A stretch of 64,000 bases of DNA from an uncultured Bacteroidota bacterium (GTDB lineage Bacteria; Bacteroidota; Bacteroidia; Flavobacteriales; Flavobacteriaceae), in assembly GCA_903913315.1 (NCBI GenBank), contig CAIWKX010000028.1:1-64000 (forward strand), written 5' to 3'. Position 1 is the stretch's first letter. Every line of letters begins with the position of its first letter. This document shows positions 7,258 to 32,501 of this stretch, in pieces. The notes beneath the pieces were generated by a model, which saw only the letters and a program-made list of their open reading frames with translations, ran no database searches and was not told where the DNA came from. A program made the translations under genes and the position numbers.

Positions 7258-9972
7258 ATGAAAGACGAAGAAGAAGATAATATTAATGAGGAAGAAACTA
7301 ACGACGAGTTAGGCGATTCAACCAACGACGAAAGTGTAGACGAAGGCTTTGAGGACATAGTTTCTAGAGGCGGAAATCACTTTTATGAAAACGACGAGAA
7401 TCCCGAAGATACAATTACCAAAGTTACAGGAATGTATAAAGATTGGTTTTTGGATTACGCTTCCTATGTAATTCTGGAGCGTGCCGTGCCTGCGATTGAA
7501 GATGGTTTCAAACCCGTGCAACGTCGTATCATGCATTCTTTAAAAGAATTGGATGATGGGCGTTACAATAAAGTAGCTAATGTCGTTGGACATACCATGC
7601 AGTACCACCCTCACGGTGACGCAAGTATTGGTGATGCCATGGTGCAAATAGGTCAAAAGGAATTGTTGATTGACTGTCAAGGAAACTGGGGGAATATCCT
7701 TACCGGAGATAGTGCTGCTGCTTCGAGATATATTGAAGCGCGTTTGTCTAAATTTGCTTTAGAAGTATTGTATTCTCCTAAGATTACTGATTGGGGAATG
7801 TCTTATGATGGGCGCCGTGCTGAACCAAATAATCTTCCTGTTAAGTTTCCATTGCTTTTAGCACAAGGTGCCGAAGGCATTGCCGTTGGACTTTCGACCA
7901 AAGTATTGCCTCACAATTTTAACGAATTGATTGATGCTTCTATAAAAATTCTAAAAGGGAAACCTTTTACCTTATATCCCGATTTTCAAACCGCAGGTAT
8001 TGCTGATATTTCCAATTATAATGATGGATTGCGTGGCGGACGTGTACGTGTTCGTGCTAAAATTGCGCAATTGGACAAACAAACCTTAGTGATTTCCCAA
8101 ATTCCTTTTTCAACCAATACCTCAACTTTGATTGATAGTATTTTGAAGGCGAATGAAAAAGGTAAAATAAAAATCAAGAAGATTGAGGACAATACCGCTG
8201 CCGAAGTAGAGATATTAATTCATCTTTTTCCAGGGGTTTCTCCAGATAAAACAATTGATGCCTTATATGCTTTCACGGCATGCGAAACATCGGTGGCGCC
8301 TTTAGGTTGTGTCATTGAAGACAACAAACCTTTGTTTATTGGGGTTTCGGCGATGCTTAAAATTTCAACCGAAAGAACGGTTCAGTTATTAAAAGCCGAA
8401 CTCGAAATTCAATTGGAAGAACTTAAAAACAAATGGCACTTCTCTACTTTAGAAAAGATATTCATTCGTGAGGAAATGTATATTGATTTCAAATTGTATT
8501 CTGACAGAGAATCGCTTTATGAGTATATGTACAAACGATTTGAGCCTTTTGCAAAATCATTTGTTAGAGCAATTGAAGATGACGATTTACAAAAATTAAC
8601 TCAAATTCCGATGATTCGTATTACTCGTTTTGATTCGGATAAAGCAGATGATTTTATTGCCAAATTGGAAGACGAAATGAAAGAAGTGCAACATCATTTA
8701 GACAACCTAATTGATTTTGCCATCGACTATTTTGCTCGATTGAAAGAGAAATACGGAAAAGGTCGTGAGCGTCAAACGGAATTGCGAAGTTTTGAAAACA
8801 TTGAAGCAACCAAAGTCGTTTTAAGAAATACCAAACTCTATGTAAACAAGGAAGAAGGTTTCTTTGGAACCGGTTTGAAAAAAGACGAATATGTTGCCGA
8901 TTGTTCTGATATCGATGATGTTATTGTTTTTTTACGTGATGGAAAAATGATGATTTCTAAAGTAGATGATAAAAAGTTCGTAGGCAAAGACATCATCCAT
9001 ATTGCCGTATTTGATAAGAATGATAAAAGAACCATTTACAACATGATTTATCGTGATGGTAAAAATGGGTCCACTTTTATAAAACGTTTTAATGTATCAG
9101 GAGTTACGCGTGATAAATTTTACGATTTGACACAAGAAAAAGCAGGCTCACAAGTATCTTACTTTTCTGCTAATCCGAATGGTGAAGCCGAAGTAGTGAC
9201 CATTTTATTGCGTCAAGTAGGAAGTGTTAAGAAACTAAAATGGGATGTCGATTTTACTGACATAGCTATAAAAGGACGTGCATCTCGTGGTAATACGGTT
9301 ACTAAATATCCAATCAAGAAAATCGAATTGAAAGAGAAAGGTATTTCTACTTTGCGTCCGAGAAAAGTTTGGTTTGATGATACGGTACAACGTTTAAACG
9401 TAGATGGAAGAGGCGAATTGTTGGGGGAGTTTAGACCTAACGACCGTTTGCTAATCATCAATCAAGCAGGAAAGTTGAAAACTATTATTCCTGAATTGAC
9501 TACGCACTTTGATGAAGATATGATAGTATTGGAAAAATGGAATCCGAAGAAACCAATATCTACCATTTATTATGACGGTGAAAAAGAGCGCTATTTTGTG
9601 AAACGTTTCTTGATTGAAAACGAAAACAAAGAAGAAACCTTTATTACGGAGCATGAAAAATCACAATTAGAGATTGTTTCTACTGATTGGAGACCCGTTG
9701 CTGAGATTGTTTTTGCCAAAGTAAAAGGCGTTCAAAAAGATAATCAGACGATAGATTTAGAACAATTTATTGCTGTGAAAGGAATAAAAGCCATCGGAAA
9801 TCAATTGACTTCTGACAAATTAAAACAAGTCAATCTTTTGGAATCGTTACCTTATGAAGAACCTGAAGAAGAAACTCCAGAAGAAATGGAAGTAACCGGA
9901 GATGACACTATTTCTGAAGATATTCAAACCGAATTAGATGACGATGGACAAATCACTCTGTCATTAGAATAA
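7258..9972 (+). CDS. parC: DNA topoisomerase IV subunit A (ParC/GyrA family)
   Basis: ParC forms the DNA cleavage and rejoining subunit of topoisomerase IV. The 904-residue protein starts with an acidic, low-complexity tail of about 60 residues and enters the conserved core at YASYVILERAVPAIEDGFKPVQRR. The QYHPHGDASIGDA helix follows, and the catalytic tyrosine at Y158 lies in AAASRYIEARLS. The C-terminal third is a beta-pinwheel-like region, and the tail is again acidic (EEPEEETPEEMEV). The start codon lies one base after the third cassette gene, so parC expression now depends on transcripts crossing the cassette unless an internal promoter exists. ParC uses CGT/CGA arginine codons freely, in contrast to the cassette. 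Confidence 0.94.
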   Translation: MKDEEEDNINEEETNDELGDSTNDESVDEGFEDIVSRGGNHFYENDENPEDTITKVTGMYKDWFLDYASYVILERAVPAIEDGFKPVQRRIMHSLKELDDGRYNKVANVVGHTMQYHPHGDASIGDAMVQIGQKELLIDCQGNWGNILTGDSAAASRYIEARLSKFALEVLYSPKITDWGMSYDGRRAEPNNLPVKFPLLLAQGAEGIAVGLSTKVLPHNFNELIDASIKILKGKPFTLYPDFQTAGIADISNYNDGLRGGRVRVRAKIAQLDKQTLVISQIPFSTNTSTLIDSILKANEKGKIKIKKIEDNTAAEVEILIHLFPGVSPDKTIDALYAFTACETSVAPLGCVIEDNKPLFIGVSAMLKISTERTVQLLKAELEIQLEELKNKWHFSTLEKIFIREEMYIDFKLYSDRESLYEYMYKRFEPFAKSFVRAIEDDDLQKLTQIPMIRITRFDSDKADDFIAKLEDEMKEVQHHLDNLIDFAIDYFARLKEKYGKGRERQTELRSFENIEATKVVLRNTKLYVNKEEGFFGTGLKKDEYVADCSDIDDVIVFLRDGKMMISKVDDKKFVGKDIIHIAVFDKNDKRTIYNMIYRDGKNGSTFIKRFNVSGVTRDKFYDLTQEKAGSQVSYFSANPNGEAEVVTILLRQVGSVKKLKWDVDFTDIAIKGRASRGNTVTKYPIKKIELKEKGISTLRPRKVWFDDTVQRLNVDGRGELLGEFRPNDRLLIINQAGKLKTIIPELTTHFDEDMIVLEKWNPKKPISTIYYDGEKERYFVKRFLIENENKEETFITEHEKSQLEIVSTDWRPVAEIVFAKVKGVQKDNQTIDLEQFIAVKGIKAIGNQLTSDKLKQVNLLESLPYEEPEEETPEEMEVTGDDTISEDIQTELDDDGQITLSLE

Positions 9973-9989
9973 AAATAAAGAAATACCAT

Positions 9990-10026
9990 AGACCTGCAAG
10001 ACATTATTCTCTTGTAGGTCTTTTTA
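9990..10026 (+). terminator. Terminator after parC
   Basis: AGACCTGCAAGA pairs with TCTTGTAGGTCT around a nine-base loop and is followed by T5. Its core is the same ACCTGCAA/TTGTAGGT stem as the ychF terminator. Confidence 0.85.
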
Positions 10027-10044
10027 TATCTGATTTTTATCATT

Positions 10045-10204
10045 GAAGCCGTTTAAACTTTTTTCAATTGGCTGCAAAATTGTATTTTTATCCCATATTT
10101 CAGCTTTTTTTAATTCCGTAGCACAACTATGCACTGAAAAAAAGCTAAAAACTGAAACAAAAACCCTAATTTTTCGCTTCAATCAAAAAAGTTTAAACGA
10201 CTTC
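10045..10204. repeat. Long imperfect palindrome upstream of fhs
   Basis: GAAGCCGTTTAAACTTTTTT at the left is matched by AAAAAAGTTTAAACGACTTC at the right (19 of 20 paired), and each arm contains the palindrome GTTTAAAC. Pairing continues inward imperfectly, including TTTCAGCTTTTTTT against AAAAAAAGCTAAAAACTGAAA, so about 160 bases can fold into one long hairpin. It may be a MITE-like remnant or a structured leader. No convincing ORF lies inside; the 68-residue ORF in the track uses TTG and crosses the palindrome. Confidence 0.7.
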
Positions 10205-10261
10205 ATTTTTAAATACACAACACAACCTTATTTTTACTACAAAATATAAAATCAACACCAA

Positions 10262-11935
10262 ATGTCACAATTCCCATCCGATATTGAGATTGCTCAAAGC
10301 GCCACAATGCAACACATTCGAGAAATCGCAAAAAAAATAAACATCCAAGAAGACGATTTAGAATACTACGGAAAATATAAAGCCAAGTTGCCTTTAGAAT
10401 TGCAATCAGAAAATCCAAAAGGGAAACTAATACTGGTTTCTGCCATGTCTCCCACAAAATATGGAGAGGGAAAAACCACAATGTCTATTGGCTTAACAGA
10501 CGGATTGAACTATATTGGTAAGAAAGCCATTGCTGCGTTGCGCGAACCCTCATTAGGACCAGTTTTTGGAATGAAAGGCGGTGCGGCTGGAGGTGGCTAT
10601 GCACAAGTATTACCAATGGAAGATATCAATTTGCACTTTACTGGTGATTTTTCTGCCATTGAAAAAGCGAATAATTTACTTGCTGCGGTAATCGATAACA
10701 ATCTTCAAAATCCGAAATACTCATTGAATCTTGATCCAAAATCTATTGCATGGAAACGCGTGATGGATATGAACGATCGTTCGCTGCGTCAGATTATTAT
10801 TGGTGTGGGAACAAAAGCGAACGGCACCATGCGGGAAGATGGATTTAATATAACCCCAGCTTCTGAAGTAATGGCGATTTTATGTTTGTCAAGAGATTTA
10901 GAAGATTTAAAATTCCGTTTGGGAAATATATACGTGGGAAAAACTTTGGATGGAAAAGCTATTTTTGCACGTGACTTAAAAGTAGTTGGTGCAATGGCGG
11001 TTTTGTTGAAAGATGCCTTGAAACCCAATTTAGTACAAACTTTAGAAGGCAATCCTGCTCTCCTTCATGGTGGTCCTTTTGCTAGTATTGCCCAAGGAAC
11101 CAATACTGTTATTGCGACTAAAATGGGGCTTTCTTTAGGCGATTATGTAGTTACCGAAGCTGGATTTGGCGCTGATTTGGGAGCGGAGAAGTTTCTTCAT
11201 ATCAAATGCGAACAATCGGGATTAAAACCGGATGCCGTGGTATTGGTGGCGACCATTCGTGCGATTAAACACCATGCCGGATTGGGTGCAGAAGATTTTA
11301 AAACCGAAAATATAGAAGCCATTGCCAAAGGTTTTTGCAATCTTGAAAAACATATTGAAAACATGCAACAGTTTGGATTGAATCCTGTGGTGTGCATCAA
11401 TGCTTTTCCAGATGATACTCCTGCCGAATATAACAAATTGAAAGCTTTGTGTTTAACTAAAGGCGTTACTGCCATAGTGAGTACTGCTTTTGTAGACGGA
11501 GGAAATGGTTCGGCAGAATTGGCAGAAAAAGTAATTGCCGAAATTGAGAGCGGCAAAGCCAACTACCAACCGTTATACCAAAAAAACGATACTATTGAAC
11601 ACAAAATAAGAACGATTGCGACCCGAATTTATGGTGCAGATACCGTTGAATTTTCTTCAAAATCCAAAATACAGTTGAAGATGATCAATGATTTAGGATT
11701 TAATGAATTTCAAATTTGTATGGCAAAAACACCAGCTAGTTTCTCAGATAATGAAAAGATAATTGGACGACCAACTAATTTTACTATTACTGTGCGCGAG
11801 TTTGAAATTGCCAGTGGTGCTGGGTTTATTGTGCCGTTGCTTGGAGATGTTATGCGCATGCCAGGTTTACCAGCCGTTCCCAATGCAGAACGAATAGATA
11901 TTGATAATGATGGGAAGATTATTGGGCTGTCTTAG
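10262..11935 (+). CDS. fhs: Formate--tetrahydrofolate ligase
   Basis: The enzyme uses ATP to join formate to tetrahydrofolate, giving 10-formyl-THF for purine and one-carbon metabolism. The 557-residue length is typical for the bacterial enzyme. Visible motifs are the P-loop-like MSPTKYGEGKTTMSIGLTDG, REPSLGPVFGMKGGAAGGG, MEDINLHFTGDF and the C-terminal FIVPLLGDVMRMPGLP. It appears to be monocistronic, bounded by the parC terminator and palindrome upstream and the convergent rluD gene downstream. The palindrome in its leader region may influence transcription. A near-consensus TATTTTTA box lies about 25 bases before the ATG. Confidence 0.96.
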   Translation: MSQFPSDIEIAQSATMQHIREIAKKINIQEDDLEYYGKYKAKLPLELQSENPKGKLILVSAMSPTKYGEGKTTMSIGLTDGLNYIGKKAIAALREPSLGPVFGMKGGAAGGGYAQVLPMEDINLHFTGDFSAIEKANNLLAAVIDNNLQNPKYSLNLDPKSIAWKRVMDMNDRSLRQIIIGVGTKANGTMREDGFNITPASEVMAILCLSRDLEDLKFRLGNIYVGKTLDGKAIFARDLKVVGAMAVLLKDALKPNLVQTLEGNPALLHGGPFASIAQGTNTVIATKMGLSLGDYVVTEAGFGADLGAEKFLHIKCEQSGLKPDAVVLVATIRAIKHHAGLGAEDFKTENIEAIAKGFCNLEKHIENMQQFGLNPVVCINAFPDDTPAEYNKLKALCLTKGVTAIVSTAFVDGGNGSAELAEKVIAEIESGKANYQPLYQKNDTIEHKIRTIATRIYGADTVEFSSKSKIQLKMINDLGFNEFQICMAKTPASFSDNEKIIGRPTNFTITVREFEIASGAGFIVPLLGDVMRMPGLPAVPNAERIDIDNDGKIIGLS

Positions 11936-32311: not shown

Positions 32312-32383
32312 TAGCCCGTAGGGGAATCGAACCCCTCTTACCAGGATGAAAACCTGGCGTCCTAACCGATAGACGAACGGGCC
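32312..32383 (-). tRNA. tRNA-Glu (UUC), copy 2
   Basis: On the minus strand the sequence folds as a 72-nt tRNA. The acceptor stem is GGCCCGT/ACGGGCT, the anticodon arm is CCAGG-TTTTCAT-CCTGG giving anticodon UUC, and the T arm is AGGGG-TTCGATT-CCCCT. The discriminator is A and CCA is not encoded. It is identical to the neighbouring copy. Confidence 0.95.
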
Positions 32384-32429
32384 AATGTCATCCTGGGTTA
32401 AATAATAATCTCAAAATATATTGAACTTG

Positions 32430-32501
32430 TAGCCCGTAGGGGAATCGAACCCCTCTTACCAGGATGAAAACCTGGCGTCCTAACCGATAGACGAACGGGC
32501 C
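32430..32501 (-). tRNA. tRNA-Glu (UUC), copy 1
   Basis: This is the first of two identical tandem tRNA-Glu genes, with the same arms and UUC anticodon as the downstream copy. It lies about 20 bases after a good -7 box. The 46-base spacer between the copies is not repeated elsewhere. Confidence 0.95.

Follow-up and report, generated by a model that had tools for sequence, protein, structure and literature searches.

A palindrome in front of fhs as a recently inserted MITE of a probable Flavobacterium, with probable IS5-family drivers

The imperfect palindrome of about 160 bp that precedes fhs in an uncultured member of the Flavobacteriaceae, probably of the genus Flavobacterium (contig CAIWKX010000028.1, positions 1 to 64,000, the whole stretch analysed and hereafter called the window) is, with a probability of roughly 0.95, a non-autonomous miniature inverted-repeat transposable element (MITE), which would have been moved by an IS5-family DDE transposase encoded at another locus of the genome. 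A first-pass annotation, made from the letters of the window, had proposed either a MITE-like element or a long hairpin leader of fhs; the former is borne out by the presence of multiple copies, by a sister genome whose exact empty site reveals a 3-bp duplication, and by an IS5-family partner whose ends match. What can be read from the sequences compared thus comprises an insertion with exact ends, its 3-bp duplication, a multi-copy family and IS elements whose ends match and which are likewise flanked by duplications. Going by sequence, this is a new MITE family of a known kind, as far as the literature searched shows, in which no description of a comparable Flavobacterium element was found.

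The element occupies positions 10045-10204, is an imperfect palindrome from end to end, and lacks any ORF of at least 80 aa. It starts with GAAGCCGTTTAAACTTTTTT and finishes with AAAAAAGTTTAAACGACTTC. Its terminal inverted repeats, the left one at 10045-10064 (plus strand) and the inverted copy of it, GAAGTCGTTTAAACTTTTTT, at 10185-10204 (minus strand), pair over 20 bp with one mismatch, as first described, and are of the same kind as the ends of IS5-family elements; with up to three mismatches allowed, such a terminal-repeat pattern is expected by chance 0.08 times per window. The annotated extent is exact. The inner arms pair in patches, so that, folded end to end, the stretch reaches -39.9 kcal/mol versus -19.4 +/- 3.1 for shuffled sequences (z = -6.6; 0 of 200 shuffles as stable). 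The hairpin tip is an apical stem-loop, CCGTAG-N-CTATGCA (10116-10132), which is the best-conserved part of the body: in the alignment of diverged copies its stem columns are nearly invariant, while the loop varies. The motif GTTTAAAC, noticed early on in each outer arm, is indeed present in both, but by itself it does not exceed its chance frequency, with 3 occurrences in the window versus 3.1 expected.

Comparison with the sister genome G276, whose sequence around the start of fhs is 93% identical, shows the palindrome to be a recent insertion into the fhs spacer and not a built-in leader of this gene. Between the parC-like gene and fhs, G276 has no element and reads TGATTTTTATC-ATT-TTTAAATACAC (contiguously TGATTTTTATCATTTTTAAATACACAAC; in longer context CTTGTAGGTCTTTTTATATCTGATTTTTATC-ATT-TTTAAATACACAACACAACC), where the window has ATC-ATT-(160 bp)-ATT-TTTAAATACAC, equalling G276 up to ATC-ATT and resuming after the 160 bp with ATT-TTTAAATACACAACACAACC. 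The empty site that the first-pass annotation had suggested looking for in sister strains is therefore at hand, and its single ATT, together with the direct repeats at other copies, identifies the ATT at 10042-10044 and the ATT at 10205-10207 as the left and right copies of a 3-bp target-site duplication. That role had been tentatively given to ATTTTTA, described as lying just outside both ends. Copies of this heptamer flank the element at 10033-10039 and 10205-10211, but 5 bases separate the left one from it, and since both copies are present in the G276 empty site and hence pre-date the insertion, they are native sequence and the true duplication is ATT. More distant relatives likewise have fhs spacers devoid of the MITE, and ATTTTTATCATTT is kept in four of them (L106, L125, L126, L131). 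Elsewhere, G276 possesses a near-identical copy (99%), whose location is apparently common to G276 and the genome of the window (L025), and matching 3-bp repeats flank it in both. Because G276 combines this near-identical copy with an empty fhs site, the fhs copy can be placed after the species split and traced to a pre-existing family.

A search for further copies of the 160 bases, also proposed at the outset, revealed about 16 long relatives of 76-98% identity in the own genome of the element, as well as about 10 short hairpins, mostly of about 49-58 bp, that feature the same ends; all seven copies checked for context in this genome are intergenic. Among the short hairpins, L040, L041, L042, L044 and L045 (49-53 bp) consist of the MITE ends with almost no body, and some of them have 3-bp duplications, namely ATT on either side in L041 and L045. 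These 49-53-bp hairpins are reduced versions of the MITE, which may nevertheless have moved. Of 400 congeneric genomes, at least 21 contain the family, a match at E < 1e-8 being counted as presence, and phage and plasmid collections yielded no copy. The combination named in advance as refuting the proposal, a single copy that is conserved within the fhs leader, is thus not what is observed: the sequence is multi-copy and absent from the fhs spacers of relatives. Full copies are nearly always 153-161 bp long, including those that have diverged from the window element to about 72-75% identity. The congener G016 is particularly rich in the family: the end motif is found 139 times at up to three mismatches versus 3 times for a reversed control, there are about 30 full 160-bp copies, and several copies are nested one in another, as in TTTTTATT-ATT-(160)-ATT-CCG, where 323 bp equal 160 + 160 + 3 bp. 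Three 160-bp MITEs of this genome (L051, L059, L064) lie within a larger second repeat with ends like CCCAAATTACGCATTAGA...TCTAACGCATAATTTGGG, and further copies (L065, L066, L069, L071) have a different common set of flanks; these G016 copies seem to have been carried along inside other repeated elements.

Target duplication is not confined to the fhs site. Of 67 elements for which both ends could be assigned, 23 have identical 3-bp flanks on the left and right, versus a mean of 5.8 and a maximum of 15 in 2000 rounds with shuffled partners and 0-5 in shifted frames. The matched repeats are AAT (nine), ATT (six), TAT (four) and ACT, AGT, GAA and AAA (one each), so that 17 of the 23 are of the ANT type (AAT, ATT, ACT, AGT), to which the ATT of the window copy belongs. 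About two thirds of the scored elements are without a perfect 3-bp repeat, owing to decay, nesting, recombination or wrong end calls. An A-N-T duplication points to the IS5 family, as such duplications fit bacterial IS5 transposons (Han et al. 2015, PMC4482050).

The same genome also contains a candidate partner whose ends match. A profile search for DDE_Tnp_1 yielded two genes, one of them on contig C75 within a 904-bp IS5-family element, which encodes a 274-aa transposase, ends with AAACTGATTTAAACTTTT and GAAGTGATTTAAACTTTT (inverted ends in full: AAACTGATTTAAACTTTTG and GAAGTGATTTAAACTTTTA) and has AAT on either side. The transposase matches DUF4096, DDE_Tnp_1 and, above the cut-off, the IS5-family model NF033580 (4e-37); its class rests on the latter match, and the ISL2 subgroup is a candidate placement. 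Derivation of the MITE from this ISL2-like subgroup of the IS5 family is consistent with both the similarity of the ends and the 3-bp ANT duplication. The C75 transposase and its relatives occur in 9 of 300 congeneric genomes, the own genome included. G022 contains five copies of an IS that measures about 917 bp, ends in GAAGTGATTTAAACTTTT and has the 3-bp duplications TTT, ATA, TAT, ATT and TAA. Moreover, within the set of elements compared, end variants of the MITEs run parallel to those of the IS: MITEs with GAACTCATCTTGAC ends pair up with IS with GAAGTCATCTTGAC ends, and IS ends of GAAGTCATCTTGACTTTT or close to it (G146, G181, G292) correspond to the GAACTCATCTTGACTTT ends of MITEs from other species, with 15 bases identical. 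Among GTDB contigs, the C75 transposase found two matches only, both in Prevotellaceae, including one complete element with GAACTCATTTAAACTTTT ends. On L133, from a Prevotellaceae MAG, a related IS5-family element with GAACTCATTTAAACTTTT ends (761-1687) apparently interrupts another transposase-like gene.

The relation between MITE and IS is restricted to the ends. The longest exact run common to the C75 IS and the window MITE at their ends is 11, and comparison of the MITE interior with the IS elements gave no convincing relation; hence, the MITE is not a simple deletion product of an IS seen here, and the C75 IS, which has only terminal bases in common with it, may not be the true parent. 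Likewise, G016, the genome with most copies, lacks a transposase close to that of C75, which implies that its copies were moved by some other enzyme. PF01609 matches at G016 contig ends were considered as partners and dismissed for want of matching ends.

The proposed course of events is as follows. A transposase supplied by the 904-bp IS on C75, or by a lost relative of it, would recognise the ends of roughly 18 bp, GAAGTSRTTTAAACTTTT, whereupon a 160-bp copy would enter the AT-rich spacer, which extends from the terminator behind the parC-like gene to the fhs promoter, and cutting of the target with a 3-base stagger would lead to duplication of ATT. The C75 IS in particular may have been the mover of the fhs copy, and transposition of the family may be going on to this day, the genomes bearing traces of movement only.

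The spacer that was entered is bordered upstream by an intrinsic terminator (9990-10029, plus strand, from a terminator scan) of the parC/gyrA-like gene at 7258-9972, which lies outside the MITE and resembles a hairpin in the empty spacers of relatives. Downstream follows the ORF of fhs, encoding formate-tetrahydrofolate ligase (10262-11935, plus strand, 557 aa), a name adopted from the first-pass annotation and consistent with the sequence. A TGATTTTTATCA box (10032-10043) adjoins the insertion and overlaps the left ATT copy; it is conserved in the fhs spacers of G276, L125, L126 and L131, while those of L106 and L109 have it with a single mismatch. The box resembles a dyad regulator site, and the MITE now parts it from the fhs promoter region. 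An effect of the insertion on fhs would accompany the MITE reading and not compete with it. An altered expression of fhs is possible, if somewhat doubtful: the insertion point adjoins this conserved box at a distance of about 55 bp from the fhs start codon, and the element shifts the box 163 bp further from that codon and places a long hairpin upstream of or within the 5' region of the gene, yet the promoter-proximal 54 bp have stayed intact and hardly differ from the G276 empty site, and a scan of the fhs strand finds neither promoter nor terminator inside the MITE. Elsewhere in the window, two tandem tRNA genes of 57.8 bits each were observed on the minus strand at 32312-32501, probably a recent duplication.

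The arms of the hairpin are kept complementary across copies. In a set of 35 copies that represent two species, pairing extends to 93.5% of cells, both sides have changed in 14 pairs, no shuffle reaches the observed covariation, and 62 double-change cells contrast with at most 16 in slid controls; among 21 copies from many species, 88.7% of cells pair, and the 90 double-change cells exceed both the 35.8 of shuffles and the maximum of 12 seen with slid controls. As related copies inflate the comparison with shuffles, the slid controls are relied upon. This covariation, along with a stable fold directly upstream of fhs, would suit a hairpin leader or riboswitch, that is, a cis-acting RNA belonging to the gene. 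One-sided changes, on the other hand, are of the G-U kind in 13-17% of cases versus about 31% expected without selection, so that an RNA fold under selection is not supported as the cause of the covariation, and maintenance of the palindrome at the DNA level is favoured instead. The element also has no match in Rfam, its copies adjoin other genes, and G276 as well as other relatives, with fhs at the same place, lack it in this spacer, which rejects a leader as its origin; the second proposal of the first-pass annotation is accordingly abandoned as very improbable. Equally improbable is a palindrome of the REP/REPIN type, spread by a Y1 (RAYT) transposase. Repeated intergenic palindromes, a GAAG tetranucleotide at the ends and short forms of 49-58 bp are all reminiscent of such elements, but single-strand transposition by Y1 enzymes makes no target duplications, whereas 3-bp duplications accompany the insertions found here, including the site defined by G276, and the ends match those of IS5-family DDE elements.

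With the MITE reading thus preferred, the upkeep of its body calls for an explanation. We infer that the arms are held complementary by DNA-level exchange, namely template switching within the hairpin, and/or by selection on the ends. An IS5-type transposase should need the ends only. Since the hairpin persists at full length over wide divergence, with co-varying arms, a size fixed at about 160 bp and a nearly invariant apical CCGTAG/CTATG stem, the body might have a function of its own, for instance as an extruded cruciform that aids transposition or binds a host protein, though this is rather unlikely. The constancy of a full-length hairpin in a MITE whose ends follow those of IS elements is of wider interest. 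Beyond that, the exact empty site proves that the palindrome before this metabolic gene is a mobile element inserted recently, and a MITE family present in at least 21 congeneric species is defined along with the IS5-family elements that probably drive it.

Among described elements, the IS5-type MITEs of Porphyromonas gingivalis and an IS982-type MITE of Cardinium come closest. As regards the IS, the C75 element is akin to ISL2-like members of the IS5 family such as ISCaa2 and ISCaa3 of Amoebophilus (about 915 bp, 275 aa; PMC3196728) in its size (here 904 bp, with a transposase of 274 aa), and to ISL2-like IS in its inverted ends of about 18 bp and the 3-bp A/T-rich target duplication, although ISCaa2 and ISCaa3 show no visible duplications (PMC3196728). 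The window element differs from such IS in that it is 160 bp long, gene-less and wholly palindromic, with an interior unrelated to the IS. MITE239, MITE464, MITE700 and BrickBuilt of P. gingivalis are likewise gene-less elements of Bacteroidota whose ends match a resident IS5-family element, but these IS5-type MITEs have other end sequences (GAGACC... or ACGTCAG...), and BrickBuilt contains a minisatellite and generates duplications of varying length (PMC4596501). MITECca01 of Cardinium resembles the present family as a Bacteroidota MITE that has spread beside intact copies of its partner IS, but belongs to the IS982 family, measures about 240 bp and keeps some of the parental internal sequence (PMC9769881).
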